Positions 1-64,000 of a stretch of 64,000 bases of DNA are shown here, piece by piece. The translations under genes and the position numbers were made by a program. Origin of the DNA: Panorpa germanica. Lineage: Eukaryota > Arthropoda > Insecta > Mecoptera > Panorpidae. Within the stretch, counting starts at the first letter, position 1; each line of letters begins with the position of its first letter. Under the pieces are notes generated by a model. That model saw only the letters and a list, made by a program, of their open reading frames with translations, was not told the origin of the DNA and searched no databases. The stretch spans positions 12,720,759-12,784,758 of the forward strand of contig OY783204.1 in assembly GCA_963678705.1 (NCBI GenBank). Reading direction: 5' to 3'.

Positions 1-9
1 CGTTAGACA

Positions 10-42
10 AAAAAAGTGATAATAATTAGGTTAGTGTTAGTG
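10..42 (+). other. A-tract followed by TTAGG-like repeats (unit 1 example)
   Basis: An A7 tract, then gtgataataa, then TTAGG-TTAGTG-TTAGTG at 26-42. It recurs at the start of every unit. It resembles a retrotransposon 3' A-tail joined to degenerate arthropod telomeric (TTAGG)n sequence. Only one pentamer is perfect. Confidence 0.4.
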
Positions 43-1379
43 CTAAAACATCAAGTGGTAAAAAAATTCAAGAAATCTGTAGAGCTATATATGGAAGACC
101 TCATATAAACATTACAAATATACGGAAGACAAAAGGTTGCCGCTCACTATTAAGTAAGTCGATTAACATTAACTATAATTAATATTAAAACATAAGAATT
201 AGTTTATATTAATGCGTGTTTTAAATAATAAAAAAAGTGTATTAATTGTTATAAGTGATTAAGTGAACAATATATGCAGTTTTCTTGGAAATAGTGATTG
301 ATTGTTCATGAACATACAATGGTAACAAACAAATGGTAAGTAAGTAGGCATAAGTACAAGTATGTACATGAGATATTTATAGAAATTCAGTGTGCCTTTA
401 ATAATGTCTGGTGGCCAAGTGACCTTCAAAGAATTAGACCGGCAAAAACCTCTAGGTACGTCTACTGCGTTATGGAGAACTATTTTCATTGTCGAACATT
501 AATTTTACAAACCGATTACCGTTCTATGAGAAGGCAACTATCTTAAGGTTGTCCTCAGCGATGCGTAATGGGGCCTGAGCTCTGGAACATAATATTCGAC
601 AAGAACTGTGTTTCTCACTCGAAAGATTGTGTAAACGTATGTTTTGCCAACGATAATGTGATCCTTATCGGTGCAAATAGTACCGAACAACTAAAAAGCC
701 GTTCTCGACCTGCTATAGATATAATCTGTAGTTTCTTGAAGCTACAAAGCTACGAAACAAATACGGTAACAACGAATAATAAACTTGTAACACACCTTGC
801 GCGTGTAACAAAGGCAGAATGAATCTTAAACTCGGCAACTATGCCGACACTATGCAAAATGGCATTTATGCCAATGGTTGTGTATTTTGCTTCGGCATGG
901 TATTACAGGATTAATCTTCCAGATCTTCCATGCAAAGAATTATGTTATTGACGATGACGCGTTGTTGCAGAACTATATCTACAGAAGTGGTGCAGGTGAT
1001 TTTGGGGACAATTCCTTTAGATTTAAAAATCACTCATGCACTTACTCAAGTTCAAATTACACTAAAACTGAAAAAATCAAATTTTGATGATTTAAAATTA
1101 ATGCGACAAATTTCGAGGATTTAAAGTTAATGCGGCTGTAGGATAAAAGTCTGAAGACGATACTAAATATATTGCTAAAAAGATGAATGCATACATGCAT
1201 AAGCTCTGGCAAGACAGATGGGACATTATACAAAAAGGAAGACCTACGTATTGGTTTACAAGGACGTTAATATTGCTTTGCAACACAAGTAGTTCCTATC
1301 TACTATGTGTGTGATCGGCTCTTGCTACTTTAGGTGAAAAAAGTGATTAAAAGTGAGAAATTAATTACGGAAAAAATTA

Positions 1380-1385
1380 AATAAA
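1380..1385 (+). promoter_or_regulatory. AATAAA poly(A)-signal-like hexamer (unit 1 example)
   Basis: Lies about 70 bp after the end of the R1 C-terminal remnant, just before the stem-loop, and recurs in nearly all full units. It could be the old element's polyadenylation signal. In AT-rich DNA it may equally be chance. Confidence 0.3.
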
Positions 1386-1392
1386 TTATATT

Positions 1393-1417
1393 AATACTTT
1401 TTCAAACGAAAAGTATT
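1393..1417 (+). other. Conserved stem-loop in the noncoding part (unit 1 example)
   Basis: Perfect 9-bp inverted repeat aatactttt / aaaagtatt around a 7-base loop. It is present at the same place in nearly every full unit. Some units keep the stem while the loop varies (tcaaacg, tttaacg, tcaaaag). The arm is broken in a few copies, for example ~23175 and ~32434. Confidence 0.75.
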
Positions 1418-1512
1418 TAAGTTTGTTTTAAATTTGTGTTAATTTACCCTAAACAAAGTGTTTTTACAAAAGTTTGACAGTTGGAAACCAGTGTTAAAAA
1501 CGATTTTTTCAT

Positions 1513-1536
1513 TACGCGTACACGCGGTCTTATAAA
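1513..1536 (+). promoter_or_regulatory. CpG-dense palindromic cluster plus TATAAA (unit 1 example)
   Basis: tacgcgta is a perfect 8-bp palindrome, followed by cacgcgg, giving four CpG within about 15 bases of otherwise CpG-poor DNA. TATAAA follows a few bases later. It recurs in nearly every unit. It is a candidate protein-binding or promoter-like site; no function is shown. Confidence 0.35.
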
Positions 1537-1587
1537 CATAACCTCAAAATTGTAACTTTGATGTTTGATATATGACATTATTAAGTG

Positions 1588-3175
1588 CAAAAGACAAAAA
1601 AAGTGATAATAATTAGGTTAGTGTTAGTGCTAAAACATCAAGTGGTTAAGAAATTTAAGAAATCTGTGGAGCTATGTAAGGAAGACCTCATATAAACACT
1701 ACAAATATACGGAAGACAAAAGGTTGCCGACCACTATCAAGTAAGTTGATTAACATTAACTATAAATAATATTAAAACATAAGAATTAGTTTATATAAAT
1801 ACGTGTATTAAATAATAAGGAGAGTGTATTAATTGTTATAAGTGATTAAGGGAACAATATATGCGGTTTTCTTTGAAATAGTGATTGATCGTTCATGAAC
1901 ATTTAATGGTAACAAACAAATGGTAAGTAAGTAGGCATAAGTACAAGTATGTACATGAGATATTTATAGAAATTCAGTGTGCCTTTGATAATGTCTGGTG
2001 GCCAAGTGACCTTCAAAGAATTAGACCGGCAAAAACCTCTAGGTACGTCTACTGCGCTATAGAGAACTATTTTCATTGTCGAACATTAATTTTACAAACC
2101 GATTACCGTTCCATGAAAAGGCAACTATCTAAAGGTTGTCCTCAGCGATCCGTAATGGGGCCTGAGCTCTGGAACATGGTATTCGACGAGAACTGTGTTT
2201 CTCACTCAAAAGGTTGTGTAAACGTATGTTTTGCCAACGATAATGTGATCCTTATCGGTGCAAATAGTACAGAACAACTAGAAAGCCGTTCTCGACCTGC
2301 TATAGATAAAATCTGTAGTTTCTTGAAACTACAAAGCTACGAAACAAATACGGTAACAACGAATGATAAACTTGTAACACACCTTGCGCGTGTCACATGG
2401 ACGGAATGAAGCTTAAACTCGGCAACTATGCCGACACTATGCAAAAGGGCATTTATGCCAATGGTTGTGTATTTTGCTTCGGCATGGTATTACAGGATTA
2501 ATCTTCCAGATCTTCCATGCAAAGAACTATGTTATTGACGATGACGCGTTGTTGCAGAACTGTATCTACAGAAGTGGTGCAGGTGATATTAGGGACAATT
2601 CCTTTAGATTTAAAAATCACTCATGCACCTACTTAAGTACAAATTACTCTAGAACTGAAAAAATCAAATTTTGATGATTTAAAATTAATGCGACAAATTT
2701 CGAGGATTTAAAGTTAATGCGGCTGTAGGATAAAAGTCTGGAGACGATACCAAATATATTGCCAAAGAGATGAATGCATATATGCATAAGCTTTGGCAAG
2801 ACAGATATGACTTAATACAAAAAGGAAGACCTACGTATTGGTTTACAAGGACGTTAATATTGCTTTGCAACACAAGTGGTTCCTATCTACTATTTGTGTG
2901 ATCGGCTCCTGCTACTTTAGGTGAAAAAAGTGATTAAAAGTGAGAAATTAATTACGGAACAAAATTAAATAAATTATATGATTACTTTTTCAAACGAAAA
3001 GTATTTAAGTTTGTTTTAAGGTTGTGTTAATTTACCCTAAACAAAGTGTTTTTACAAAAGTTTGACAGTTGGAAACCAGTGTTAAAAACGAATTTTTTAT
3101 TACGCGTACACGCGGTCTTATAAACATAACCTCAAAATTGTAACTTTGATGTTTGATATAAGACATTAATAAGTG
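1588..3175 (+). repeat. Array unit 2 (A type, 1,588 bp)
   Basis: A relatively intact A unit: the RT frame is open from 1927 to the TGA at 2407-2409. The stem-loop at ~2980-3003 has a substitution in its left arm. It differs from units 1 and 5 at many positions, so it is a separate lineage. Confidence 0.95.
1927..2901 (+). pseudogene. R1-clade retrotransposon ORF2 remnant (unit 2, A type)
   Basis: This is the 3' half of a non-LTR retrotransposon ORF2, no longer functional. The frame from 1927 to the TGA at 2407-2409 holds, in order, a motif A region (IEIQCAFDNVWWP), the GCPQ-S-GPELWN-VFDE block, and CFANDN at the YADD position. Homology continues in frame past that TGA (SATMPTLCKRAFMP, then YFASAWYYR). 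It then shifts frame into MQRTMLLTMTRCCRTVSTE and IPLDL, and shifts again into WQDRWDLIQKGRPTYWF, ending at the TGA at 2899-2901. These blocks in this order are characteristic of R1-clade elements (R1, TRAS and relatives). The endonuclease domain, the rest of the RT and the CCHC knuckle are absent. One catalytic Asp of YADD is Asn, and motif A has Glu for the first Asp, so the protein would be inactive. Confidence 0.85.
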
Positions 3176-4745
3176 CGATAGACAAAAAAGTAATAATAAT
3201 TAGGTTAGTGTTAGTGCTAAAACATCAAGTGGTTAAGAAATTCAAGAAATCTGTAGAGCTATATAAGGAAGACCTCATATAAACACTACAAATATACGAA
3301 AGACAAAAGGTTGCCGCCCACTATCAAGTAAGTCGATTAACATTAACTATAAATAATATTAAAACATAAGAATTAGTTTATATAAATGCGTGTTTTAAAT
3401 AATAAAGAGAGTGTATTAATTGTTATAAGTGATTAAGCGAACAATATATGCGGTTTTTTTGGAAATAGTGATTGATCGTTCATGAACATACAATGGTAAC
3501 AAACAAATGGTAAGTAAGTAGGCATAAGTACAAGTACGTACATGAGATATTTATTGAAATTCAGTGTGCCTTTGATAATGTCTGGTGGCCAAGTGACCTT
3601 CAAAGAATAATACCAGCAAAAACCTCTAGGTACGTCTACTGCGCTATGGAGAACTATTTTCATTGTCGAACATTAATTTTACAAACCGATTATTGTTCTA
3701 TGATACGGCAACTATCTAAAGGTTGTCCTCAGCGATCCGTAATGGAGCCTGAGCTCTGGAACATGGTATTCGACGAGAACTGTGTTTCTCACTCGAAAGG
3801 TTGTGTAGACATATGTTTTGCCAACGATAATGTGATCCTTATCGGTGCAAATAGTACAGAAACCCTAGAAAGCCGTTCTCGACCTGCTATAGATAAAATC
3901 TGAAGTTTCTTGAAGCTACAAAGCTACGAAACAAATACGGTAACAACGAATGATAAACTTGTAACACACCTTGCGCGTGTTACAAGGACGGAATGAAGCT
4001 TAAACTCGGCAACTATGCCGACACTATACAAGGGGGCATTTATGCCAATGGTTGTGTATTGTGCTTCAGCATGGTATTACAGGATCAATCTTCCAGATCT
4101 TTTATGCAAAGAACTATGATATTGACGATGACGCGTTGTTGCAGAACTGTATCTACAGAAGTGGTGCAGGTGATATTGGGGACAATTCCTTTAGATTTAA
4201 AAATGACTCATGCACTTACTCAAGTACAAAAAATCAAATTTTGATGATTTACAATTAATGCGACAAATTTCGAGGATTTAAAGTTAATGCGGCTGTAGGA
4301 TAAAAGTCTGAAGACGATACTAAATATTTTGCGAAAGAGATGAATGCATATATGCATAAGTTCTGGCAAGACAGATGGGACTTAATATAAAAAGGAAGAC
4401 CTACGTATTGGTTTACAAGGACGTTAATTTTGCTTTGCAACACAAGTGGTTCCTATCTACTATGTGTGTGATCGGCTCCTGCTACTTTAGTTGAAAAAAG
4501 TGATTAAAAGTGAGAAATTAATTACGGAAAAAAAAAAAATAAATTATATTAATACTTTTTCAAACGAAAAGTATTTAAGTTTGTTTTAAATTTGTGTTTA
4601 TTTACCCTAAACAAAGTGTTTTTACAAAAATTTGACAGTTGGAAACCAGTGTTAAAAACGAATTTTTCATTACGCGTACACGCGCTCTTATAAACATAAC
4701 CTCAAAATTGTAACTTTGATGTTTGATATAAGACATTAATAAGTG
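3176..4745 (+). repeat. Array unit 3 (A type, 1,570 bp)
   Basis: Carries a private nonsense change, TGA at 3901-3903, and a ~16-bp deletion near 4230 that removes the ttacgctagaactgaa segment. It shares tattgttctatg with unit 6, which suggests common descent of units 3 and 6. Confidence 0.94.
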
Positions 4746-6324
4746 CGATAGACAAAAAAAGTGATAATAATTAGGTTAGTGTTAGTGCTAAAACATCAAG
4801 TGGTTAAGAAATTCAAGAAATTTGTAGAGCTATATAAGGAAGATCTCATATAAACCCTACAAATATACGGAAGACAAAAGGTTGCCGCCAACTATCAAGT
4901 AAGTCGATTAACATTAACTAAAAATAATATTAAAACATAAGAATTAGTTTATATAAATGCGTGTATTAAATAATAAAGAGAGTGTATTTAATGTTATAAG
5001 TGATTAAGGGAACAATATATGCGGTTTTCTTTGAAATAGTGATTGATCGTTCATGATATTCAATGGTAACAAACAAATGGTAAGTAAGTAGGCGTAAGTA
5101 CAAGTATGTACATGAGATATTTATAGAAATTCAGTGTGCCTTTAATAATGTCTGGTGGCCAAGTGACCTTCAAAGAATTAGACCGGCAAAAACCTCTAGG
5201 TACGTCTACTGCGCTATGGAGAACTATTTTCATTGTCAAACATTAATTTTACAAACCGATTACCGTTCCATGAAAAGGCAACTATCTAAAGGTTGTCCTC
5301 AGCGATCCGTAATAGGGCCTGAGCTCTGGAACATGGTATTCGACGAGAACTGTGTTTCTCATTTGAAAGATTGTGTAAACGTATGTTTTGCCAACGATAA
5401 TGTGATCCTTAACGGTGCAAATAGTACAGAACAACTAGAAAGCCGTTCTCGACCTGCTATAGATAAAATCTGTGGTTTCTTGAAGCTACAAAACAAATAC
5501 GGTTACAACGAATGATAAACTTGTAACACACCTAGCGCGTGTCACAAGGACGGAATGAGGCTTAAACTCGGCAACTATGCCGACACTATACAAGGGGGCA
5601 TTTATGCCAATGGTTGTGTATTGTGCTTCGGCATGGTATTACAGGATTAATCTTCCAGATTTTCTATGCAAAGAACTATGTTATTGACGATGACGCGTTG
5701 TTGCAGAACTGTATCTACAGAAGTGGTGCAGGTGATATTAGGGACAATTCCTTTAGATTTAAAAATCACTCATGCACCTACTCAAGTTCAAATTACGCTA
5801 GAACTGAAAAAATCAAATTTTGATGATTTAAAATTAATGCGACAAATTTTGAGGATTTAAAGTTAATGCGGCTGTAGGATAAAAGTCTGAAGACGATACC
5901 AAATATATTGCTAAAAAGATGAATGCATAGATGCATAAGCTCTGGCAAGACAGATGGGCCTTAATACAAAAAGAAAGACCTACGTATTGGTTTACAAGGA
6001 CGTTAATATTGCTTTGCAACACAAGTGGTTCCTATCTACTATGTGTGTGATCGGCTCCTGCTACTTTAGGTGAAAAAAGTGATTAAAAGTGAGAAATTAA
6101 TTACTGAACAAAATTAAATAAATTATATAAATACTTTTTCAAAAGAAAAGTATTTAGGTTTGTTTTAAATTTGTGGTAATTTACCCTAAACAAAGTGTTT
6201 TTACAATAGTTTGACAGTTGGAAACCAGTGTTAAAAACGAATTTTTCATTACGCGTACACGCGGTCTTATAAACATAACCTTAAAATTGTAACTTTGATG
6301 TTTGATATAAGACATTAATAAGTG
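4746..6324 (+). repeat. Array unit 4 (A type, 1,579 bp)
   Basis: An ~8-bp deletion near 5490 (loss of the second gctacga of the doubled motif) breaks the RT frame. At 5557-5560 it reads gagg instead of gaag. The stem-loop at ~6129-6153 keeps its stem but has an altered loop (tcaaaag). Confidence 0.94.
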
Positions 6325-7911
6325 CGTTAGACAAAAAAAGTGATAATAATTAGGTTAGTGTTAGTGCTAAAACATCAAGTGGTAAAGAAATTCAAGCAAT
6401 CTGTAGAGCTATATATGGAAGACCTCATATAAACATTACAAATATACGGAAGACAAAAGGTTGCCGCTCACTATTAAGTAAGTCGATTAACATTAACTAT
6501 AAATAATATTAAAACATAAGAATTAGTTTATATTAATGCGTGTTTTAAATAATAAAAAAAGTGTATTAATTGTTATAAGTGATTAAGTGAACAATATATG
6601 CAGTTTTCTTGGAAATAGTGATTGATTGTTCATGAACATACAATGGTAACAAACAAATGGTAAGTAAGTAGGCATAAGTACAAGTATGTACATGAGATAT
6701 TTATAGAAATTCAGTGTGCCTTTAATAATGTCTGGTGGCCAAGTGACCTTCAAAGAATTAGACCGGCAAAAACCTCTAGGTACGTCTACTGCGTTATGGA
6801 GAACTATTTTTATTGTCGAACATTAATTTTACAAAGCGATTACCGTTCTATGAGAAGGCAACTATCTTAAGGTTGTCCTCAGCGATGCGTAATGGGGCCT
6901 GAGCTCTGGAACATAATATTCGACAAGAACTGTGTTTCTCACTCGAAAGATTGTGTAAACGTATGTTTTGCCAACGATAATGTGATCCTTATCGGTGCAA
7001 ATAGTACCGAACAACTAAAAAGCCGTTCTCGACCTGCTATAGATATAATCTGTAGTTTCTTGAAGCTACAAAGCTACGAAACAAATACGGTAACAACGAA
7101 TAATAAACTTGTAACACACCTTGCGCGTGTAACAAAGGCGGAATGAATCTTAAACTCGGCAACTATGCTGACACTATGCAAAATGGCATTTATGCCAATG
7201 GTTGTGTATTTTGCTTCGGCATGGTATTACAGGATTAATCTTCCAGATCTTCCATGCAAAGAATTATGTTATTGACGATGACGCGTTGTTGCAAAACTAT
7301 ATCTACAGAAGTGGTGCAGGTGATTTTGGGGACAATTCCTTTAGATTTAAAAATCACTCATGCACTTACTCAAGTACAAATTACACTAGAACTGAAAAAA
7401 TCAAATTTTGATGATTTAAAATTAATGCGACAAATTTCGAGGATTTAAAGTTAATGCGGCTGTAGGATAAAAGTCTGAAGACGATACTAAATATATTGCT
7501 AAAAAGATGAATGCATACATGCATAAGCTCTGGCAAGACAGATGGGACATTATACAAAAAGGAAGACCTACGTATTGGTTTACAAGGACGTTAATATTGC
7601 TTTGCAACACAAGTAGTTCCTATCTACTATGTGTGTGATCGGCTCCTGCTACTTTAGGTGAAAAAAGTGATTAAAAGTGAGAAATTAATTACGGAAAAAA
7701 TTAAATAAATTATATTAATACTTTTTCAAACGAAAAGTATTTAAGTTTGTTTTAAATTTGTGTTAATTTACCCTAAACAAAGTGTTTTTACAAAAGTTTG
7801 ACAGTTGGAAACCAGTGTTAAAAACGAATTTTTTATTACGCGTACACGCGGTCTTATAAACATAACCTCAAAATTGTAACTTTGATGTTTCATAGAAGAC
7901 ATTAATAAGTG
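6325..7911 (+). repeat. Array unit 5 (A type, 1,587 bp)
   Basis: Near-copy of unit 1 displaced by 6,324 bp. It shares the cgttagac start, the TAA at 6868-6870, AFNN in motif A and the aaaatggc variant. Only scattered base differences separate the two. Confidence 0.95.
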
Positions 7912-9191
7912 CGATAGACAAAAAAGTGATAATAATTAGGTTAGTGTTAGTGCTAAAACATCAAATGGTTAAGAAATTCAAGAAATCTGTAGAGCTATAT
8001 AAGGAATACCTCATATAAACACTACAAATATACGGAAGACAAAAGGTTGCCGCCCACTATCAAGTAAGTCGATTAACATTAACTATAAATAATATTAAAA
8101 CATAAGAGTTAGTTTATATAATTGCGTGTTTTAAATAATAAAGAGAGTGTATTAATTGTTATAAGTGATAAGGCGAACAATATATGCGGTTTTTTTGGAA
8201 ATAGTGATTGATCGTTCATGAACATACAATGGTAACAAACAAATGGTAAGTAAGTAGGCATAAGTACAAGTACGTACATGAGATATTTATTGAAATTCAG
8301 TGTGCCTTTGATAATGTCTGGTGGCCAAGTGACCTTCAAAGAATTATACCGGCAAAAACCTCTAGGTACGTCTACTGCGCTATGGAGAACTATTTTCATT
8401 GTCGAACATTAATTTTACAAACCGATTATTGTTCTATGAAAAGGCAACTATCTAAAGGTTGTCCTCAGCGATCCGTAATGGAGCCTGAGCTCTGGAACAT
8501 GGTATTCGACGAGAACTGTGTTTCTCACTCGAAAGGTTGTGTAGACATATGTTTTGCCAACGATAATGTGATCCTTATCGGTGCAAATAGTACAGAAACC
8601 CTAGAAAGCCGTTCTCGACCTGCTATAGATAAAATCTGTAGATTCTTGAAGCTACAAAGCTACGAAACAAATACGGTAACAACGAATGATAAACTTGTAA
8701 CACACCTTGCGCGTGTTACAAGGACGGAATGAAGCTTAAACTCGGCAACTATGCCGACACTATACAAGGGGGCATTTATGCCAATGGTTGTGTATTGTGC
8801 TTCAGCATGGTATTACAGGATCAATCTTCCAGATCTTTTATGCAAAGTACTATGATATTGACGATGACGCGTTGTTGCAGAACTGTATCTACAGAAGTGG
8901 TGCAGGTGATATTTGGGACAATTCCATTAGATTTAAAAATCACTCATGCACTTAAAGTGAGAAATTAATTACGGAAAAAATTAAATAAATTATATTAATA
9001 CTTTTTCAAACGAAAAGTATTTAAGTTTGTTTTAAATTTGTGTTAATTTACCCTAAACAAAGTGTTTTTACAAAAGTTTGACAGTTGGAAACCAGTGTTA
9101 AAAACGAATTTTTCATTACGCGTACTCGCGGTCTTATAAACATAACCTCAAATTTGTAACTTTGATGTTTGATAGAAGACATTAATAAGTG
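7912..9191 (+). repeat. Array unit 6 (A type, 1,280 bp, internally deleted)
   Basis: Lacks ~306 bp, from within the TQVQ coding region to just before the aaagtgagaaatt segment; the junction lies at about 8952-8956. A tta microhomology is present at the breakpoint. The C-terminal WQDRWD segment is lost. The RT frame upstream is open for 160 codons. Confidence 0.95.
8250..8955 (+). pseudogene. R1-clade ORF2 remnant, longest open RT frame (unit 6)
   Basis: The RT frame is open for 160 codons from 8250 to the TGA at 8730-8732. The only in-frame ATG that keeps most of the domain is at 8382 (116 codons). AFDNVWWP, GCPQRSVMEPELWN and FANDN are visible. The TGA sits where R1 relatives have Trp (T-E-stop-S-L-N-S-A-T-M), so it looks like a TGG to TGA nonsense change. 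The overlapping ATG at 8729 (ATGA) opens a second frame that is homologous to R1 only from about MQSTMILTMTRC onward. The C-terminal region is removed by the 306-bp deletion. Translation as a real gene is unlikely. Confidence 0.8.
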
Positions 9192-10471
9192 CGATAGACA
9201 AAAAAGTGATAAAAATTAGGTTAGTGTTAGTGCTAAAACATCAAATGGTTAAGAAATTCAAGAAATCTGTAGAGCTATTTAAGGAAGACCTCATATAAAC
9301 ACTACAAATATACGGAAGACAAAAGGTTGCCGCCCACTATCAAGTAAGTCGATTAACATTAACTATAAATAATATTAAAACATAAGAGTTAGTTTATATA
9401 AATGCGTGTTTTAAATAATAAAGAGAGTGTATTAATTGTTATAAGTGATTAAGTGAACAATATATGCGGTTTTCTTGGAAATAGTGATTGATCGTTCATG
9501 AACATACAATGGTAACAAACAAATGGTAAGTAAGTAGGCATAAGTACAAGTACGTACATGAGATATTTATTGAAATTCAGTGTGCCTTTAATAATGTCTG
9601 GTGGCCAAGTGACCTTTAAAGAATTATACCGGCAAAAACCTCTAGGTACGTCTACTGCGCTATGGAGAACTATTTTCATTGTCGAACATTAATTTTACAA
9701 CCCGATTATTGTTCTATGAAAAGGCAACTATCTAAAGGTTGTCCTCAGCGATCCGTAATGGAGCCTGAGCTCTGGAACATGGTATTCGACGAGAACTGTG
9801 TTTCTCACTCGAAAGGTTGTGTAGACATATGTTTTGCCAACGATAATGTGATCCTTATCGGTGCAAATAGTACAGAAACCCTAGAAAGCCGTTCTCGACC
9901 TGCTATAGATAAAATCTGTAGATTCTTGAAGCTACAAAGCTACGAAACAAATACGGTAACAACGAATGATAAACTTGTAACACACCTTGCGCGTGTTACA
10001 AGGACGGAATGAAGCTTAAACTCGGCAACTATGCCGACACTATACAAGGGGGCATTTATGCCAATGGTTGTGTATTGTGCTTCAGCATGGTATTACAGGA
10101 TCAATCTTCCAGATCTTTTATGCAAAGTACTATGATATTGACGATGACGCGTTGTTGCAGAACTGTATCTACAGAAGTGGTGCAGGTGATATTTGGGACA
10201 ATTCCATTAGATTTAAAAATCACTCATGCACTTAAAGTGAGAAATTAATTACGGAAAAAATTAAATAAATTATATTAATACTTTTTCAAACGAAAAGTAT
10301 TTAAGTTTGTTTTAAATTTGTGTTAATTTACCCTAAACAAAGTGTTTTTACAAAAGTTTGACAGTTAGAAACCAGTGTTAAAAACGAATTTTTCATTACG
10401 CGTACTCGCGGTCTTATAAACATAACCTCAAATTTGTAACTTTGATGTTTGATAGAAGACATTAATAAGTG
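9192..10471 (+). repeat. Array unit 7 (A type, 1,280 bp, same deletion as unit 6)
   Basis: Carries the identical 306-bp deletion junction at about 10232-10236, so units 6 and 7 descend from one deleted unit by tandem duplication. The CpG cluster reads tacgcgtactcgcgg here rather than tacgcgtacacgcgg. Confidence 0.95.
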
Positions 10472-12057
10472 CGATAGACAAAAAAGTGATAAAAATTAGG
10501 TTAGTGTTAGTGCTAAAACATCAAATGGTTAAGAAATTCAAGAAATCTGTAGAGCTATTTAAGGAAGACCTCATATAAACACTACAAATATACGGAAGAC
10601 AAAAGGTTGCCGCCCACTATCAAGTAAGTCGATTAACATTAACTATAAATAATATTAAAACATAAGAGTTAGTTTATATAAATGCGTGTTTTAAATAATA
10701 AAGAGAGTGTATTAATTGTTATAAGTGATTAAGTGAACAATATATGCGGTTTTCTTGGAAATAGTGATTGATCGTTCATGAACATACAATGGTAACAAAC
10801 AAATGGTAAGTAAGTAGGCATAAGTACAAGTACGTACATGAGATATTTATTGAAATTCAGTGTGCCTTTAATAATGTCTGGTGGCCAAGTGACCTTTAAA
10901 GAATTATACCGGCAAAAACCTCTAGGTACGTCTACTGCGCTATGGAGAACTATTTTCATTGTCGAACATTAATTTTACAACCCGATTATTGTTCTATGAA
11001 AAGGCAACTATCTAAAGGTTGTCCTCAGCGATCCGTAATGGAGCCTGAGCTCTGGAACATGGTATTCGACGAGAACTGTGTTTCTCACTCAAAGGTTGTG
11101 TAGACATATGTTTTGCCAACGATAATGTGATCCTTATCGGTGCAAATAGTACAGAAACCCTAGAAAGCCGTTCTCGACCTGCTATAGATAAAATCTGTAG
11201 TTTCTTGAAGCTACAAAGCTACAAAACAAATACGGTAACAACGAATGATAAACTTGTAACACACCTTGCGCGTGTTACAAGGACGGAATGAAGCTTAAAC
11301 TCGGCAACTATGCCGACACTATACAAGGGGGCATTTATGCCAATGGTTGTGTATTGTGCTTCAGCATGGTATTACAGGATCAATCTTCCAGATCTTTTAT
11401 GCAAAGAACTATGATATTGACGATGACGCGTTGTTGCAGAACTGTATCTACAGAAGTGGTGCAGGTGATATTTGGGACAATTCCATTAGATTTAAAAATC
11501 ACTCATGCACTTACTCAAGTACAAATTACGCTAGAGATAAAAAAAACAAATTTTGATGATTTAAAATTAATGCGACAAATTTTAAGGATTTAAAGTTAAT
11601 GCGGCTGTAGGATAAAAGTCTGGAGACGATACCAAATATATTGCCAATGAGATGAATGCATATATGCATAAGCTCTGGCAAGACAGATAGGAATTAATAC
11701 AAAAAGAAAGACCTACGTATTGGTTTACAAGGACGTTAATATTGCTTTGCAACACAAGTGGTTCCTATCTACTATGTGTGTGATCGGCTCCTGCTACTTT
11801 AGGTGAAAAAAGTGATAAAAAGTGAGAAATTAATTACGGAAAAAAATTAAATAAATTATATGAATACTTTTTTAAACGAAAAGTATTTAGGTTTGTTTTA
11901 AATTTGTGTTAATTTACCCTAAACAAAGTGTTTTTATAATAGTTTTACAGTTAGAAACCAGTGTTAAAAACGAATTTTTCATTACGCGTACACGCGGTCT
12001 TATAAATATAACCTCAAAATTGTAACTTTGATGTTTGATATAAGACATTAATAAGTG
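10472..12057 (+). repeat. Array unit 8 (A type, 1,586 bp)
   Basis: The left half matches unit 7, but the right half is full length, so an exchange point lies within the unit. A one-base deletion near 11090 (cactcaaagg) breaks the RT frame. The upstream CpG cluster has the same private ctcgcgg variant as unit 7. Confidence 0.94.
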
Positions 12058-12217
12058 CGATAGACAAAAAAAGTGATAATAATTAGGTTAGTGTTAGTGC
12101 TAAAACATCAAGTGGTTAAGAAATTTAAGAAATTTGTAGAGCTATATAAGGAAGACCTCATATAAACACTACAAAAGAAATAGTATAATAAGAAGTTATT
12201 TACATAAAATAACAAAA

Positions 12218-12930: not shown

Positions 12931-12964
12931 AACATAGAACTGGAAAAGGGGGAATTTCGAAAAA

Positions 12965-13706: not shown

Positions 13707-13837
13707 AGTGTTTTTACAAAAATTTGACAGGTGGAAACCTGTGTTAAAAACGAATTTTCCATTACGCGTACACGCGGTCTTATAAACATAACCTCAAATT
13801 TGTAACTTTGATGTTTGATATAAGACATTAATAAGTG

Positions 13838-53213: not shown

Positions 53214-55141
53214 CGATAGACAAAAAAAGTGATAATAATTAGGTTAGTGTTAGTGCTAAAACATCAAGTGGTTTAAAATTCAAGAAATCTGTAGAGATAT
53301 ATAAGGAAGACCTCATTTAAACACTACAAATATACGGAAGACAAAAGGTTGCCGCCCACTATCAAGTAAGTCGAATAACATTAACTATAAATAATATTAA
53401 AACACAAGAATTAGTTTATATTAATGCGTGTTTTTAATAATAATGAGAGTGTATTAATTGTTATAAGTGATTAAGTGAACAATATATGCGGTTTTCTTGG
53501 AAATAATGATTGATCGTTCATGAACATTCAATGGTAACAAACAAATGGTAAGTAAGTAGGCATAAGTACAAGTATGTATATGAGATATTTATAGAAATTC
53601 AGTGTGCCTTTGTTGATGTCCGGTGGCCAAGTGACCTTTAAAGAATTAGACCGGCAAAAACCTATAGGTACGTCTACTGCGCTATGGAGAACTATTTTCA
53701 TTGTCGAACATTATTATACAAACCGATTACCGTTCCATGAAAAGGCAACTATCTAAGGGTTGTCCTCAGCGATCTGTAATGGGGCCTGAGCTCTGGAACA
53801 TGGTATAAGTGATTAAGTGAACAATATATGCGGTTTTCTTGGAAATAGTGATTGATCGTTCATGAACATTCAATGGTAACAAACAAATGGTAAGTAAGTA
53901 GGCATAAGTACAAGTATGTATATGAGATATTTATAGAAATTCAGTGTGCCTTTGTTGATGTCCGGTGGCCAAGTGACCTTTAAAGAATTAGACCGGCAAA
54001 AACCTATAGGTACGTCTACTGCGCTATGGAGAACTATTTTCATTGTCGAACATTATTTTACAAACCGATTACCGTTCCATGAAAAGGCAACTATCTAAGG
54101 GTTGTCCTCAGCGATCTGTAATGGGGCCTGAGCTCTGGAACATGGTATTCGACGAGAACTGTGTTTCTTACTCGAAAGGTTGTGTAGACATATGTTTTGC
54201 CAACGATAATGTGATCCTTATCGGTGCAAATAGTACAGAAACCCTAGAAAGCCGTTCTCGACCTGCTATATATAAAATCTGTAGTTTCTTGAAGCTACAA
54301 AGCTACGAGACAAATACAGTAACAACGAATGATAAACTTGTAACACACCTTGCGCGTGTCACAAGGACGGAATGAAGCTTAAACTCGGCAACTATGCCGA
54401 CACTATACAAGGGGGCATTTATGCTAATAGTTGTGTATTGTGCTTCGGCATGGTATTACAGGATCAATCTTCCAGATCTTCCATGCAAAGAACTATGTTA
54501 TTGACGATGACGCGTTGTTGCAGAACTGTATCTACAGAAGTGGTGCAAGTGATATTGGGGACAATTCCTTTAGATTTAAAAATCACTCATGCATTTACTT
54601 AAGTACAAATTACGCTAGAACTGAAAAAATTAAATTTTGATGATTTAAAATTAATGCGACAAATTTCGAGGATTTAAAGTTAATGCGGATGTAGGATAAA
54701 AGTCTGGAGACGATACCAAATATATTGCTAAAGAGATGAATGCATATATGCATAATCTCTGGCAAGACAGATGGGACTTAATACAAAAAGGAAGACCTAC
54801 GTCTTGGTTTACAAGGACGTTAATATTGCTTTGCAACACAAGTGGTTCCTATCTACTATGTGTGTGATCGGCTCCTGCTACTTTAGGTGAAAAAAGTGAT
54901 TAAAAGTGAGAAATTAATTATGGAAAAAAATTAAATAAATTATATGAATACTTTTTCAAACGAAAAGTATTTAAGTTTGTTTTAAATTTGTGTTAATTTA
55001 CCCTAAACAAAGTGTTTTTACAAAAGTTTGACAGTTGAAAACCAGTGTTAAAAACGAATTTTTCATTACGCGTACACGCGGTCTTATAAACATAACCTCA
55101 AATTTGTAACTTTGATGTTTGATATAAGACAATAATAAGTG
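53214..55141 (+). repeat. Array unit 35 (B type, 1,928 bp, 342-bp internal duplication)
   Basis: After gaacatggtat the sequence jumps back to aagtgattaag at 53807 and repeats 342 bp. The two arms differ (aaataatg / ttattatac versus aaatagtg / ttatttta), so they came from different parental units. Confidence 0.95.
53465..54148 (+). repeat. 342-bp tandem partial duplication in unit 35
   Basis: Arms 53465-53806 and 53807-54148. The junction has a tat microhomology (catggtat and gttataag). The arms differ at several bases. Confidence 0.93.
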
Positions 55142-56715
55142 CGATAGACAAAAAAAGTGATAATAATTAGGTTAGTGTTAGTGCTAAAACATCAAGTGGT
55201 TTAAAATTCAAGAAATCTGTAGAGATATATAAGGAAGACCTCATTTAAACACTACAAATATACGGAAGACAAAAGGTTGCCGCCCACTATCAAGTAAGTC
55301 GAATAACATTAACTATAAATAATATTAAAACACAAGAATTAGTTTATATTAATGCGTGTTTTTAATAATAATGAGAGTGTATTAATTGTTATAAGTGATT
55401 AAGTGAACAATATATGCGGTTTTCTTGGAAATAGTGATTGATCGTTCATGAACATTCAATGGTAACAAACAAATGGTAAGTAAGTAGGCATAAGTACAAG
55501 TATGTATATGAGATATTTATAGAAATTCAGTGTGCCTTTGTTAATGTCCGGTGGCCAAGTGACCTTCAAAGAATTAGACCGGCAAAAACCTATAAGTACG
55601 TCTACTGCGCTATGGAGAACTATTTTCATTGTCGAACATTATTTTCCAAACCGATTACCGTTCCATGAAAAGGCAACTATCTAAAGGTTGTCCTCAGCGA
55701 TCTGTAATGGGGCCTGAGCTCTGGAACATGGTATTCGACGAGAACTGTGTTTCTCACTCGAGAGGCTGTGTAGACATATGTTTTGCCAACGATAATGTGA
55801 TCCTTATCGGTGCAAATAGTACAGAAACCCTAGAAAGCCGTTCTCGACCTGCTATATATAAAATCTGTAGTTTCTTGAAGCTACAAAGCTACGAAACAAA
55901 TACAGTAACAACGAATGATAAACTTGTAACACACCTTGCGCGTGTCACAAGGACGGAATGAAGCTTAAACTCGGCAACTATGCCGACACTATACAAGGGA
56001 GCATTTATGCTAATAGTTGTAAATTGTGCTTCGGCATGGTATTACAGGATCAATCTTCTAGATCTTTCATGCAAAGAACTATGTTATTGACGATGACGCG
56101 TTGTTGCAGAACTGTATCTACAGAAGTGGTGCAAGTGATATTGGGGACAATTCCTTTAGATTTAAAAATCACTCATGTACAAATTACGCTAAAACAAAAA
56201 AAATTAAATTTTGATGATTTAAAATTAATGCGACAAATTTCGAGGATTTAAAGTTAATGCGGCTGTAGGATAAAAGTCTGGAGACGATACCAAATATATT
56301 GCTAAAGAGATGAATGCATATATGCATAAGCTCTGGCAAGACAGATGGGACTTAATACAAAAAGGAAGACCTACGTATTGGTTTACAAGGACGTTAATAT
56401 TGCTTTACAACACAAGTGGTTCCTATCTACTATGTGTGTGATCGGCTCCAGCTACTTTAGGTGAAAAAAGTGATTAAAAGTGAGAAATAAATTATGGAAA
56501 AAAATTAAATAAATTATATGAATACTTTTTTTAACGAAAAGTATTTAAGTTTGTTTTAAATTTGTGTTAATTTACCCTAAACAAAGTGTTTTTACAAAAG
56601 TTTTACAGTTGGAAACCAGTGTTAAAAACGAATTTTTCATTACGCGTACACGCGGTCTTATAAACATAACCTCAAATTTGTAACTTTGATGTTTGATATA
56701 AGACATTAATAAGTG
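55142..56715 (+). repeat. Array unit 36 (B type, 1,574 bp)
   Basis: 12-bp deletion type. Counterpart of unit 40, with private cttctagatc near 56058. Confidence 0.95.
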
Positions 56716-58301
56716 CGATAGACAAAAAAAGTGATAATAATTAGGTTAGTGTTAGTGCTAAAACATCAAGTGGTTTAAAATTCAAGAAATCTGTAGAGAT
56801 ATATAAGGAAGACCTCATATAAACACTACAAATTTACGGAAGACAAAAGGTTGCCGCCCACTATCAAGTAAGTCGAATAACATTAACTATAAATAATATT
56901 AAAACACAAGAATAAGTTTATATAAATGCGTGTTTTAAATAATAATGATAGTGTATTAATTGTTATAAGTGATTAAGTGAACAATATATGCGGTTTTCTT
57001 GAAAATAGTGATTGATCGTTCATGAACATTCAATGGTAACAAACAAATGGTAAGTAAGTAGGCATAAGTACAAGTATGTATATGATATATTTATAGAAAT
57101 TCAGTGTGCCTTTGTTGATGTCCGGTGGCCAAGTGACCTTTAAAGAATTAGACCGGCAAAAACCTATAGGTACGTCTACTGCGCTATGGAGAACTATTTT
57201 CATTTTCGAACATTATTTTACAAACCGATTACCGTTCCATGAAAAGGCAACTATCTAAGGGTTGTCCTCAGCGATCTGTAATGGGGCCTGAGCTCTGGAA
57301 CATGGTATTCGACGAGAACTGTGTTTCTTACTCGAAAGGTTGTGTAGACATATGTTTTGCCAACGATAATGTGATCCTTATCGGTGCAAATAGTACAGAA
57401 ACCATAGAAAGCCGTTCTCGACCTGCTATATATAAAATCTGTAGTTTCTTGAAGCTACAAAGCTACGAGACAAATACAGTAACAACGAATGATAAACTTG
57501 TAACACACCTTGCGCGTGTCGCAAGGACGGAATAAAGCTTAAACTCGGCAACTATGCCGACACTATACAAGGGGGCATTTATGCTAATAGTTGTGTATTG
57601 TGCTTCGGCATGGTATTACAGGATCAATCTTCCAGATCTTCCATGCAAAGAACTATGTTATTGACGATGACGCGTTGTTGCAGAACTGTATCTACAGAAG
57701 TGGTGCAAGTGATATTGGGGACAATTCCTTTAGATTTAAAAATCACTCATGCATTTACTTAAGTACAAATTACGCTAGAACTGAAAAAATTAAATTTTGA
57801 TGATTTAAAATTAATGCGACAAATTTCGAGGATTTAAAGTTAATGCGGATGTAGGATAAAAGTCTGAAGACGATACCAAATATATTGCTAAAGAGATGAA
57901 TGCATATATGCATAAGCTCTGGCAAGACAGATGGGACTTAATACAAAAAGGAAGACCTACGTATTGGTTTACAAGGACGTTAATATTGCTTTGCAACACA
58001 AGTGGTTCCTATCTACTATGTGTGTGATCGGCTCCTGCTACTTTAGGTGAAAAAAGTGATTAAAAGTGAGAAATTAATTATTGAAAAAAATTAAATAAAT
58101 TATATGAATACTTTTTCAAACGAAAAGTATTTAAGTTTGTTTTAAATTTGTGTTAATTTACCCTAAACAAAGTGTTTTTACAAAAGTTTGACAGGTGGAA
58201 ACTAGTGTTAAAAACGAATTTTTCATTACGCGTACACGCGGTCTTATAAACATAACCTCAAATTTGTAACTTTGATGTTTGATATAAGACAATAATAAGT
58301 G
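56716..58301 (+). repeat. Array unit 37 (B type, 1,586 bp)
   Basis: The left half resembles unit 22 (aagaataag, cttgaaaatag). cattttcgaac at 57201 recurs at 63875 in unit 41. The right half copies unit 33. Confidence 0.95.
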
Positions 58302-59887
58302 CGATAGACAAAAAAAGTGATAATAATTAGGTTAGTGTTAGTGCTAAAACATCAAGTGGTTTAAAATTCAAGAAATCTGTAGAGATATATAAGGAAGACC
58401 TCATATAAACACTACAAATATACGGAAGACAAAAGGTTGCCGCCCACTATCAAGTAAGTCGAATAACATTAACTATAAGTAATATTAAAACACAAGAATT
58501 AGTTTATATAAATGCGTGTTTTAAATAATAATGAGAGTGTATTAATTGTTATAAGTGATTAAGTGAACAATATATGCGGTTTTCTTGGAAATAGTGATTG
58601 ATCGTTCATGAACATTCAATGGTAACAAACAAATAGTAAGTAAGTAGGCATAAGTACAAGTATGTATATGAGATATTTATAGAAATTCAGTGTGCCTTTG
58701 TTGATGTCCGGTGGCCAAGTGACCTTTAAAGAATTAGACCAGCAAAAACCTATAGGTACGTCTACTGCGCTATGGAGAACTATTTTCATTGTCGAACATT
58801 ATTTTACGAACCGATTACCGTTCCATGAAAAGGCAACTATCTAAGGGTTGTCCTCAGCGATCTGTAATGGGGCCTGAGCTCTGGAACATGGTATTCGACG
58901 AGAACTGTGTTTCTTACTCGAAAGGTTGTGTAGACATATGTTTTGCCAACGATAATGTGATCCTTATCGGTGCAAATAGTACAGAAACCCTAGAAAGCCG
59001 TTCTCGACCTGCTATATATAAAATCTGTAGTTTCTTGAAGCTACAAAGCTACGAGACAAATACAGTAACAACGAATGATAAACTTGTAACACACCTTGCG
59101 CGTGTCACAAGGACGGAATGAAGCTTAAACTCGGCAACTATGCCGACACTATACAAGGGGGCATTTATGCTAATAGTTGTGTATTGTGCTTCGGCATGGT
59201 ATTACAGGATCAATCTTCCAGATCTTCCATGCAAAGAACTATGTTATTGACGATGACGCGTTGTTGCAGAACTGTATCTACAGAAGTGGTGCAAGTGATA
59301 TTGGGGACAATTCCTTTAGATTTAAAAATCACTCATGCATTTACTTAAGTACAAATTACGCTAGAACTGAAAAAATTAAATTTTGATGATTTAAAATTAA
59401 TGCGACAAATTTCGAGGATTTAAAGTTAATGCGGATGTAGGATAAAAGTCTGGAGACGATACCAAATATATTGCTAAAGAGATGAATGCATATATGCATA
59501 AGCTCTGGCAAGACAGATGGGACTTAATACAAAAAGGAAGACCTACGTCTTGGTTTACAAGGACGTTAATATTGCTTTGCAACACAAGTGGTTCCTATCT
59601 ACTATGTGTGTGATCGGCTCCTGCTACTTTAGGTGAAAAAAGTGATTAAAAGTGAGAAATTAATTATGGAAAAAAATTAAATAAATTATATGAATACTTT
59701 TTTAAACGAAAAGTATTTAAGCTTGTTTTAAATTTGTGTTAATTTACCCTAAACAAAGTGTTTTTACAAAAGTTTGACAGTTGAAAACCAGTGTTAAAAA
59801 CGAATTTTTCATTACGCGTACACGCGGTCTTATAAACATAACCTCAAATTTGTAACTTTGATGTTTGATATAAGACAATAATAAGTG
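58302..59887 (+). repeat. Array unit 38 (B type, 1,586 bp)
   Basis: Second-block counterpart of unit 34, with gtaggcat and cgatctg at the positions where unit 34 is private. Confidence 0.95.
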
Positions 59888-61815
59888 CGATAGACAAAAA
59901 AAGTGATAATAATTAGGTTAGTGTTAGTGCTAAAACATCAAGTGGTTTAAAATTCAAGAAATCTGTAGAGATATATAAGGAAGACCTCATTTAAACACTA
60001 CAAATATACGGAAGACAAAAGGTTGCCGCCCACTATCAAGTAAGTCGAATAACATTAACTATAAATAATATTAAAACACAAGAATTAGTTTATATTAATG
60101 CGTGTTTTTAATAATAATGAGAGTGTATTAATTGTTATAAGTGATTAAGTGAACAATATATGCGGTTTTCTTGGAAATAATGATTGATCGTTCATGAACA
60201 TTCAATGGTAACAAACAAATGGTAAGTAAGTAGGCATAAGTACAAGTATGTATATGAGATATTTATAGAAATTCAGTGTGCCTTTGTTGATGTCCGGTGG
60301 CTAAGTGACCTTTAAAGAATTAGACCGGCAAAAACCTATAGGTACGTCTACTGCGCTATGGAGAACTATTTTCATTGTCGAACATTATTATACAAACCGA
60401 TTACCGTTCCATGAAAAGGCAACTATCTAAGGGTTGTCCTCAGCGATCTGTAATGGGGCCTGAGCTCTGGAACATGGTATAAGTGATTAAGTGAACAATA
60501 TATGCGGTTTTCTTGGAAATAGTGATTGATCGTTCATGAACATTCAATGGTAACAAACAAATGGTAAGTAAGTAGGCATAAGTACAAGTATGTATATGAG
60601 ATATTTATAGAAATTCAGTGTGCCTTTGTTGATGTCCGGTGGCCAAGTGACCTTTAAAGAATTAGACCGGCAAAAACCTATAGGTACGTCTACTGCGCTA
60701 TGGAGAACTATTTTCATTGTCGAACATTATTTTACAAACCGATTACCGTTCCATGAAAAGGCAACTATCTAAGGGTTGTCCTCAGCGATCTGTAATGGGG
60801 CCTGAGCTCTGGAACATGGTATTCGACGAGAACTGTGTTTCTTACTCGAAAGGTTGTGTAGACATATGTTTTGCCAACGATAATGTGATCCTTATCGGTG
60901 CAAATAGTACAGAAACCCTAGAAAGCCGTTCTCGACCTGCTATATATAAAATCTGTAGTTTCTTGAAGCTACAAAGCTACGAGACAAATACAGTAACAAC
61001 GAATGATAAACTTGTAACACACCTTGCGCGTGTCACAAGGACGGAATGAAGCTTAAACTCGGCAACTATGCCGACACTATACAAGGGGGCATTTATGCTA
61101 ATAGTTGTGTATTGTGCTTCGGCATGGTATTACAGGATCAATCTTCCAGATCTTCCATGCAAAGAACTATGTTATTGACGATGACGCGTTGTTGCAGAAC
61201 TGTATCTACAGAAGTGGTGCAAGTGATATTGGGGACAATTCCTTTAGATTTAAAAATCACTCATGCATTTACTTAAGTACAAATTACGCTAGAACTGAAA
61301 AAATTAAATTTTGATGATTTAAAATTAATGCGACAAATTTCGAGGATTTAAAGTTAATGCGGATGTAGGATAAAAGTCTGGAGACGATACCAAATATATT
61401 GCTAAAGAGATGAATGCATATATGCATAAGCTCTGGCAAGACAGATGGGACTTAATACAAAAAGGAAGACCTACGTCTTGGTTTACAAGGACGTTAATAT
61501 TGCTTTGCAACACAAGTGGTTCCTATCTACTATGTGTGTGATCGGCTCCTGCTACTTTAGGTGAAAAAAGTGATTAAAAGTGAGAAATTAATTATGGAAA
61601 AAAATTAAATAAATTATATGAATACTTTTTCAAACGAAAAGTATTTAAGTTTGTTTTAAATTTGTGTTAATTTACCCTAAACAAAGTGTTTTTACAAAAG
61701 TTTGACAGTTGAAAACCAGTGTTAAAAACGAATTTTTCATTACGCGTACACGCGGTCTTATAAACATAACCTCAAATTTGTAACTTTGATGTTTGATATA
61801 AGACAATAATAAGTG
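59888..61815 (+). repeat. Array unit 39 (B type, 1,928 bp, 342-bp internal duplication)
   Basis: Same 342-bp duplication and same junction as unit 35 (jump at 60480/60481), so it was duplicated as part of the 6,674-bp block. ggctaagtgacc at 60299 is private. Confidence 0.95.
60139..60822 (+). repeat. 342-bp tandem partial duplication in unit 39
   Basis: Arms 60139-60480 and 60481-60822, with a junction identical to that in unit 35. Confidence 0.93.
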
Positions 61816-63389
61816 CGATAGACAAAAAAAGTGATAATAATTAGGTTAGTGTTAGTGCTAAAACATCAAGTGGTTTAAAATTCAAGAAATCTGTAGAGAT
61901 ATATAAGGAAGACCTCATTTAAACACTACAAATATACGGAAGACAAAAGGTTGCCGCCCACTATCAAGTAAGTCGAATAACATTAACTATAAATAATATT
62001 AAAACACAAGAATTAGTTTATATTAATGCGTGTTTTTAATAATAATGAGAGTGTATTAATTGTTATAAGTGATTAAGTGAACAATATATGCGGTTTTCTT
62101 GGAAATAGTGATTGATCGTTCATGAACATTCAATGGTAACAAACAAATGGTAAGTAAGTAGGCATAAGTACAAGTATGTATATGAGATATTTATAGAAAT
62201 TCAGTGTGCCTTTGTTAATGTCCGGTGGCCAAGTGACCTTCAAAGAATTAGACCGGCAAAAACCTATAAGTACGTCTACTGCGCTATGGAGAACTATTTT
62301 CATTGTCGAACATTATTTTCCAAACCGATTACCGTTCCATGAAAAGGCAACTATCTAAAGGTTGTCCTCAGCGATCTGTAATGGGGCCTGAGCTCTGGAA
62401 CATGGTATTCGACGAGAACTGTGTTTCTCACTCGAGAGGCTGTGTAGACATATGTTTTGCCAACGATAATGTGATCCTTATCGGTGCAAATAGTACAGAA
62501 ACCCTAGAAAGCCGTTCTCGACCTGCTATATATAAAATCTGTAGTTTCTTGAAGCTACAAAGCTACGAGACAAATACAGTAACAACGAATGATAAACTTG
62601 TAACACACCTTGCGCGTGTCACAAGGACGGAATGAAGCTTAAACTCGGCAACTATGCCGACACTATACAAGGGAGCATTTATGCTAATAGTTGTAAATTG
62701 TGCTTCGGCATGGTATTACAGGATCAATCTTCCAGATCTTTCATGCAAAGAACTATGTTATTGACGATGACGCGTTGTTGCAGAACTGTATCTACAGAAG
62801 TGGTGCAAGTGATATTGGGGACAATTCCTTTAGATTTAAAAATCACTCATGTACAAATTACGCTAAAACAAAAAAAATTAAATTTTGATGATTTAAAATT
62901 AATGCGACAAATTTCGAGGATTTAAAGTTAATGCGGCTGTAGGATAAAAGTCTGGAGACGATACCAAATATATTGCTAAAGAGATAAATGCATATATGCA
63001 TAAGCTCTGGCAAGACAGATGGGACTTAATACAAAAAGGAAGACCTACGTATTGGTTTACAAGGACGTTAATATTGCTTTACAACACAAGTGGTTCCTAT
63101 CTACTATGTGTGTGATCGGCTCCAGCTACTTTAGGTGAAAAAAGTGATTAAAAGTGAGAAATAAATTATGGAAAAAAATTAAATAAATTATATGAATACT
63201 TTTTTTAACGAAAAGTATTTAAGTTTGTTTTAAATTTGTGTTAATTTACCCTAAACAAAGTGTTTTTACAAAAGTTTTACAGTTGGAAACCAGTGTTAAA
63301 AACGAATTTTTCATTACGCGTACACGCGGTCTTATAAACATAACCTCAAATTTGTAACTTTGATGTTTGATATAAGACATTAATAAGTG
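61816..63389 (+). repeat. Array unit 40 (B type, 1,574 bp)
   Basis: Counterpart of unit 36. gctacgagac near 62555 and gagataaatg near 62984 are differences from it. Confidence 0.95.
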
Positions 63390-64000
63390 CGATAGACAAA
63401 AAAAGTGATAATAATTAGGTTAGTGTTAGTGCTAAAACATCAAGTGGTTTAAAATTCAAGAAATCTGTAGAGATATATAAGAAAGACCTCATATAAACAC
63501 TACAAATTTACGGAAGACAAAAGGTTGCCGCCCACTATCAAGTAAGTCGAATAACATTAACTATAAATAATATTAAAACACAAGAATAAGTTTATATAAA
63601 TGCGTGTTTTAAATAATAATGATAGTGTATTAATTGTTATAAGTGATTAAGTGAACAATATATGCGGTTTTCTTGAAAATAGTGATTGATCGTTCATGAA
63701 CATTCAATGGTAACAAACAAATGGTAAGTAAGTAGGCATAAGTACAAGTATGTATATGATATATTTATAGAAATTCAGTGTGCCTTTGTTGATGTCCGGT
63801 GGCCAAGTGACCTTTAAAGAATTAGACCGGCAAAAACCTATAGGTACGTCTACTGCGCTATGGAGAACTATTTTCATTTTCGAACATTATTTTACAAACC
63901 GATTACCGTTCCATGAAAAGGCAACTATCTAAGGGTTGTCCTCAGCGATCTGTAATGGGGCCTGAGCTCTGGAACATGGTATTCGACGAGAACTGTGTTT
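63390..64000 (+). repeat. Array unit 41 (B type, partial, 611 bp)
   Basis: Cut by the window end inside the RT segment. It follows unit 37, including cattttcgaac at 63875, so a third copy of the 6,674-bp block begins here. Confidence 0.95.

Follow-up and report, generated by a model that had tools for sequence, protein, structure and literature searches.

A probable retrotransposon-derived satellite in Panorpa germanica that contains an ORF2 fragment resembling R1-clade elements

A stretch of 64,000 nucleotides from Panorpa germanica (C1:12720759-12784758, assembly GCA_963678705.1; genome 464 Mb in 249 contigs), called the window below, is almost completely filled by one repeat that contains part of a retrotransposon gene. 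The locus raises the question of how a piece of a long interspersed nuclear element (LINE) came to stand in a long tandem array, and whether it still encodes a working protein. The array in the window is satellite DNA, a long head-to-tail run of similar units, and we consider it very likely that the repeat is a retrotransposon-derived satellite, in which a fragment of the second open reading frame (ORF2) of an R1-clade-like LINE was amplified, homogenised and dispersed together with about 600 bp of other DNA. An ORF2 piece extending from the palm of the reverse transcriptase (RT) to about the thumb would have been joined to this other DNA, the joined unit would have been amplified head to tail and then spread to several chromosomes, and the units would be held similar through unequal exchange and segmental duplication.

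The repeat runs from base 5 to base 64000 with 41 unit starts, every unit on the + strand, in agreement with the original prediction of at least 40 head-to-tail units of about 1,586 bp, and 62,620 of the 64,000 bases (97.8%) match the unit consensus. Most units (34) measure 1,570-1,588 bp, with a modal length of 1,586 bp. Five are irregular (u6 and u7, 1,280 bp; u21, 1,341 bp; u35 and u39, 1,928 bp), u9 is split by an insert and a run of N, and the last unit, u41, is cut at the window end. The mean pairwise identity was 96.7% (range 93.1-99.9%) for 39 units, u9 (which contains N) and u41 being excluded from this set and from the tree described below. A tandem-repeat scan with a period limit of 500 bp picked up only internal duplications and one low-complexity stretch. 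Consensus coverage is broken by gaps of at least 10 bp at two places only, the insert and the N gap:

5..12175, + strand: satellite block 1, u1-u9 (u9 cut by the insert), a more diverse subfamily with DNVWWP in some units
12176..13334, + strand: insert in u9, LINE-like, replacing unit positions 117-686
13507..13706, no strand: assembly gap of 200 N, the real length not given by the assembly
13707..64000, + strand: satellite block 2, the end of u9 and u10-u41, a more uniform subfamily, mostly with VDVRWP

The array had been described as homogenised, and the mean identity bears this out, but homogenisation is uneven, since mutual identity is 95.6% for u1-8, 97.8% for u10-40 and 94.8% between these two sub-blocks. 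They meet at the N gap, and contiguity across the gap is not proven. The insert sits directly before the gap. Read by eye, it resembles the 5' part of a different LINE, with a lysine/glutamate-rich, coiled-coil ORF1-like frame followed by an endonuclease-like start (GFWNVAG); no Pfam family was found in it above the family's cut-off.

The LINE-like part occupies approximately unit positions 336-1330, so that the predicted composition of about 975 bp of ORF2 and 610 bp of noncoding DNA was about right. The remaining 600 bp or so, in which no coding match was detected, is contiguous across the unit junction (unit position ~1330 to 1586 and 1 to ~335). As a reference from the same genome we used the LINE L127 (C5:8425000-8428700), whose open frame has 1,133 aa and reads by eye as an R1-like LINE over roughly its first 870. 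A profile of 980 positions, called R1-like here, was made from 102 of its listed relatives, each of at least 850 aa. Three fragments of the window serve as examples:

1927..2406, + strand: RT-palm fragment, a 160-aa open frame in u02, with motif A D changed to E and YADD changed to FAND
16204..16542, + strand: C-terminal fragment (RTVSTEVVQVILGTIPLDL) in another frame, with no Pfam match alone
14982..15146, + strand: WQDRWD fragment, whose consensus counterpart at profile positions 835-860 (-1.2 bits) is not significant alone

The 160-aa frame of u02 matched Pfam RVT_1 at 32.7 bits (E 8e-8, profile positions 66-166 of 205), and u02 matched the R1-like profile at 66.6 bits over positions 539-673; the E-values of the latter profile (1.2e-21 for u02) cover a 24-frame search only and are not comparable with those of Pfam. 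RVT_1 passed the Pfam cut-off in four of the seven satellite RT frames scanned, the other three scoring 21.8-27.8 bits. In the unit consensus, the R1-like profile matched over positions 587-676 (37.2 bits), over 784-827 in another frame (22.3 bits; the counterpart of the fragment at 16204..16542) and over 538-592 in a third frame (5.0 bits). The best domain score of this profile in a control of 200 full-length dinucleotide shuffles of the unit (1,200 frames) was 1.2 bits. When the unit was compared with L127 by tblastn, the consensus scored 47.0 bits and u02 55.5 bits. Some match was obtained with 193 of the 200 shuffles, the best at 26.2 bits; the satellite scores exceed this, and the LINE match is thus more than chance. 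A second host LINE piece, on C15, gave collinear matches to the unit at 26.2 and 32.7 bits. At the DNA level, one piece of the match between the unit and L127 stands out (E 3e-5); a second piece (E 0.021) is collinear, but it equals matches to unrelated stretches and was not counted as evidence. Each of the 120 listed R1-like proteins matched one or more of four satellite sequences at E 1e-3, with 33% identity in the best-scoring alignment.

The fragment is an internal piece of ORF2, from motif A of the RT palm to about the thumb region, with deletions and spread over three frames of the consensus. It had been taken for the 3' half of the element, which does not fit, as the matched profile positions are 538-676 and 784-827 of 980. 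Neither the consensus nor u02 matched the profile before position 538, and no AP-type endonuclease match was found; the fingers had no match in the unit with the R1-like profile, and in none of the unit types was there a match past position 865, where the 3' end of ORF2 and the C-terminal CCHC-like stretch (read by eye in the reference proteins) would lie. The RTVSTE frame had no Pfam match. Counted over the forward frames of the window, GCPQ occurs 40 times, RTVSTE 34, IPLDL 37, WQDRWD 24 and CFANDN 39 times, and YADD does not occur. The predicted order of the motifs holds, but they lie in different frames, split by stops and deletions. AFDNVWWP had been assigned to every unit, and this has to be withdrawn, the window having three DNVWWP against 25 VDVRWP. 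The start of the window was probably read and then generalised, since all three DNVWWP units lie in block 1.

The catalytic residues were compared in an alignment of eight satellite copies and five references. All eight copies have E for the catalytic D of motif A, and all eight have FAND for the YADD of motif C, with N for the first D. The fetched, partly overlapping loci yielded 139 motif-C matches, of which 131 read FANDN and a single one FADD (L020, C1 11.8 Mb). The satellite ORF2 fragment combines frameshifts and stops with the replacement of two catalytic Asp. Judged by its sequence, the repeat encodes no working reverse transcriptase, so that a role, if there is one, would have to be a structural one played by the DNA itself or by its transcripts. 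The view of the array as a dead copy amplified as a satellite is upheld by these losses and by its tandem, homogenised order. There is little coding constraint on the LINE part. Its diversity (pi 0.036, against 0.029 in the rest of the unit) shows that it is no more conserved, and the diversity at the first, second and third codon positions was 0.039, 0.023 and 0.037 in the GCPQ frame and 0.036, 0.031 and 0.036, nearly flat, in the RTVSTE frame. A functional invariant core was considered and rejected; the longest invariant run is 26 bp, and column permutations gave a mean of 24.7 bp and a 95% point of 35 bp. A search of window positions 1-16000 found no Rfam family up to E 1.

The R1 clade comprises R1, TRAS, SART and Waldo elements. 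The assignment of the fragment to R1-type ORF2 is supported by its sequence, which fits the R1-like profile at 66.6 bits against 32.7 bits for generic RVT_1, but the match is not exclusive of other clades. The L127 endonuclease matched the solved structures of TRAS1 (4.8e-14) and R1Bm (6.5e-9), and its RT matched L1 and R2, no R1-clade RT being among the structures listed. A protein search with L127 gave 2,046 relatives, and among the 120 listed one is named R1DM (Bicyclus anynana), the others coming from beetles, a psyllid and a Trichogramma wasp. What the satellite has in common with the elements of the clade is a collinear match of its RT palm and of a single C-terminal stretch to R1-like proteins; it differs in having no match to the endonuclease or the 3' end, no working RT and no target-site insertion seen, and no boundary of an element was identified in it. 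The satellite unit is no longer an R1-clade element.

Two short sequences in the unit, spotted by eye, were judged to be chance or coding sequence. CCTATCTACTAT resembles what we take to be the R1 target in 28S rDNA; it was rejected as a trace of the target site, R1-like proteins reading GHG.F..YL by eye at that place, and is more simply explained as coding (S-Y-L-L). TTAGGTTAG was rejected as a hint of a telomeric LINE, being one weak 9-mer, and TTAGGTTAGG was absent from 20 samples of 600 bp, of which 19 came from the starts of contigs and one from an end. Past a TA-repeat stretch, the open frame of L127 enters a second RT frame that looks R2-like by eye (GVKQGDPLSPLLFN, FADDLILFGEN), perhaps a nested or adjacent element. 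On C15, closely spaced R1-like LINE pieces were seen at C15:3-5234 (starts at 3 and 4638) and C15:311799-322964 (starts at 311799, 316405, 319398 and 322368), perhaps another tandem LINE cluster.

The arrangement of the units within the window bears on how the array grew. Near its right end a block of four units is present twice, and duplications or deletions are found inside particular units:

50046..56719, + strand: higher-order repeat copy 1, u33-u36, 6,674 bp
56720..63393, + strand: higher-order repeat copy 2, u37-u40, 6,674 bp
53462..54148, + strand: 342-bp internal tandem duplication in u35
60136..60822, + strand: the same 342-bp duplication in u39, a marker of the higher-order repeat
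7916..10475, + strand: u6 and u7, adjacent 1,280-bp units with a common deletion of ~306 bp (unit 1040 to 1347)
31276..32616, + strand: u21, 1,341 bp, with a deletion of ~245-250 bp (unit 235 to 486)

The corresponding unit pairs of the two higher-order repeat copies are 99.05-99.90% identical. Other near-identical pairs are 16/18, 17/19, 24/28, 27/30 and 15/31 (lags of 2, 3, 4 and 16 units), and in the 39-unit tree these pairs and the higher-order repeat partners grouped with good support. Some of the duplication and deletion junctions within units have an overlap of 4-6 bp. Subfamilies and higher-order repeats, both signs of concerted evolution, are present, and the pattern of pairs, higher-order repeats and junctions is what would be expected from unequal exchange and segmental duplication; unequal crossing-over would be the process.

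The array continues beyond both sides of the window, interrupted by other elements. One-kb samples from C1 11.2-13.2 Mb contained the satellite in 13 of 20 cases: ten were of the 1,586-bp type (~94-99% identical to the consensus), three were diverged types (~80-86% over longer pieces; 11.2, 11.8 and 13.2 Mb), and seven had none. The satellite spans about 2 Mb in the middle of C1, which is 30.6 Mb long. It was also found in six of 13 samples from C3 17.0-19.2 Mb, and on C10 in the first 600 bases and in six of seven samples over 601-1000800 (the miss at 1.0 Mb). When the starts of C1-C19 were sampled only C10 opened with satellite, and it was absent from 18 sampled contig ends (C2-C19) and from the start of C20. 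In a protein search of the genome, 150 of 20,308 first-look candidates were scored; all 150 were satellite-like (93-100% protein identity) and lay, in both orientations, on C1, C2, C3, C8, C10, C11 and 27 other contigs. Hence at least six chromosome-size contigs (those six, 17-31 Mb long) contain the satellite, and in other loci fetched from several contigs it is likewise tandem. A strict gradient on C1 from a young centre to old edges was rejected and kept as a tendency only; diverged units occur at 11.2, 11.8 and 13.2 Mb, but the young type is found at 11.86 and 13.67 Mb.

By structure, the units in the genome fall into at least three types. The 1,586-bp unit is type A. Type B, with a unit of 1,103 bp, was seen at C10:601-4600, where its three full copies are 97.1-98.7% alike; it is ~80-85% identical to type A over longer pieces and is without unit positions 641-712 and 741-1197. 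Type C (C1 11.2 and 11.8 Mb) has positions 641-740, reading FADD in one case and FAVD in the other, and is missing 741-1197. At that place types B and C have ~45 bp that type A is missing, which in type C fits the R1-like profile to position 689; type A has the 784-827 profile part, which is absent from types B and C. The simplest reading is that all three descend from one longer ancestor by separate deletions, and the fragment that they have in common suggests a single capture event. Some units on C11 and C145 form a dimer of ~2.6 kb with a common junction (unit 1040 to ~19), which is also present on C46, and equal spacing was seen on C116.

The satellite is probably pericentromeric or centromeric, because among the places seen it forms large, mostly single clusters per chromosome and extends over 2 Mb in mid-C1. 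A bolder proposal, which we regard as possible but hold only tentatively, is that a dead R1-clade fragment has turned into a major satellite of the centromeric or pericentromeric regions, in which three or more unit types compete (1,586 bp, 1,103 bp and one with FADD retained) and higher-order repeats have formed locally, the 2.6-kb dimer of C11 and C145 among them.

Several results weigh against these readings. Searched directly against the protein database, the satellite RT frame yielded no relative, and its comparison with solved structures gave none either, apart from one unrelated match at E 0.79. The WQDRWD stretch is collinear in the consensus, but its score is no better than that of shuffles. 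The lower second-position diversity in the GCPQ frame could reflect past constraint or chance. The R1-like profile was compared with generic RVT_1 alone, and the parent element of the presumed single capture was not found. The centromere reading draws only on position, size and spread, and the rule of one cluster per chromosome is not strict, with satellite at 0.07-0.43 and 1.43 Mb on C10 and from 11.2 to 13.67 Mb on C1.

Four other explanations were weighed. A 600-bp satellite might have come first, with the LINE copy inserting into one of its units and the composite being amplified afterwards with the LINE as a passenger. The noncoding part, which is contiguous across the unit junction and largely common to the three unit types, would suit this order of events; but an ordinary LINE insertion retains its 3' end, which was not detected in the unit, and no LINE-free unit was noticed in the fetched loci, where no systematic search for one was made. 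We regard this alternative as unlikely, though less so than the other three. That the RT fragment comes from a LINE clade other than R1 appears improbable, given the gap of 66.6 to 32.7 bits between the R1-like profile and RVT_1, and given that the RTVSTE...VQVI.G.(I/V)P stretch follows the order found in the R1-like set; it has to be kept in mind, however, that only about 135 aligned RT positions and a 44-residue stretch remain, that identity is 33% in the alignment with the best score, and that the R1-like set was the sole clade profiled.

The presence of copies on at least six chromosome-size contigs in both orientations would also be expected if the unit were a mobile non-autonomous element inserting in tandem, the array growing by transposition and not by unequal exchange. 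Higher-order repeats of several units, and internal duplications and deletions held in common and in register, fit recombination instead, and all 150 scored places of the 20,308 candidates were satellite-like, which makes this a very improbable account. An assembly artefact is hardly credible: the 200-N gap does join two different sub-blocks, but the units differ from one another (93.1-99.9% identity), so that the assembler did not simply multiply a single unit, and the repeat is tandem in the other loci fetched from several contigs. The retrotransposon-derived satellite remains the preferred explanation.

Other elements were seen in and around the satellite. To the right of the window, at C1 ~12814140-12831629, a Polinton/Maverick-like element of ~17.5 kb lies inside the satellite, with a double-jelly-roll capsid (E 1e-109), a phospholipase A2-like domain, an A32-like ATPase, a weak integrase core and a chromo domain; its 1,200-aa frame is polymerase-like by eye, and Pfam shows Endonuclease_7 only. 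At C1 ~12789869-12805779 there is a second virus-like block inside the satellite, with frames of 607 and 869 aa that look polymerase-like by eye (the latter without a Pfam match) and inverted partial copies within ~16 kb. To the left of the window, Copia-like remains (gag-pol-like frames, by eye) break the satellite at C1 ~12707793-12710918. The starts of C4, C18 and C19, and partly that of C16, have a similar repeat around CTATAGTTCACATTGCTATTGAAGCGTATTCGAGTT, perhaps subtelomeric, and no TTAGG array was found in the contig ends sampled.

The 18HT satellite of Drosophila melanogaster differs from the Panorpa repeat in its origin from HeT-A and TART, which are telomeric elements of another clade than R1. 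18HT is described from the region of the Y centromere as derived from HeT-A and TART (PMC9659126), and it resembles the Panorpa repeat as an insect tandem array derived from non-LTR retrotransposons, its own position being centromeric. Satellites derived from LINEs also include the common cetacean satellite (L1), PROsat of Phodopus roborovskii (L1 ORF2) and HinfI of chicken (CR1 3'UTR and partial ORF2) (PMC9659126, PMC6947457). Their monomers likewise contain a LINE piece, with ORF2 included in two of the three; they differ in LINE clade and in their vertebrate hosts. Another close case is a tandem array of R1 that lies next to the rDNA on the X of D. melanogaster and is mostly fragmented, with higher-order repeats attributed to unequal exchange (PMC12400953, which on this array cites McGurk and Barbash 2018). 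Because this array has already been described, the contrast drawn in the original prediction with an R1 clade that is normally dispersed or target-specific is not supported. The two arrays are alike in their tandem, fragmented R1 sequence and higher-order repeats; that of D. melanogaster flanks the X rDNA, whereas the Panorpa unit is a short internal ORF2 fragment with ~600 bp of other DNA and occurs on several chromosomes. The passages on R1 in moth rDNA (PMC10257491) contain nothing like the Panorpa repeat, and in the portions of the open-licence literature available to us we found neither this repeat nor a satellite derived from R1 and spread over several chromosomes described.

LINE-derived satellites are therefore already known, and the Panorpa repeat is a clear new example of a known satellite origin. 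As an instance of a coding LINE fragment that became a satellite on several chromosomes it is well resolved: the sequence of events is recorded in the deletion types, and FADD can still be read in one diverged unit. The period of 1.6 kb exceeds the limit of some satellite surveys (750 bp in a fire-ant centromere study, PMC5024525; 500 bp in our own scan), so satellites of this kind may be under-reported. If the repeat is indeed a major centromeric or pericentromeric satellite, a LINE clade noted otherwise for inserting at specific targets would have supplied a satellite of the centromere type.

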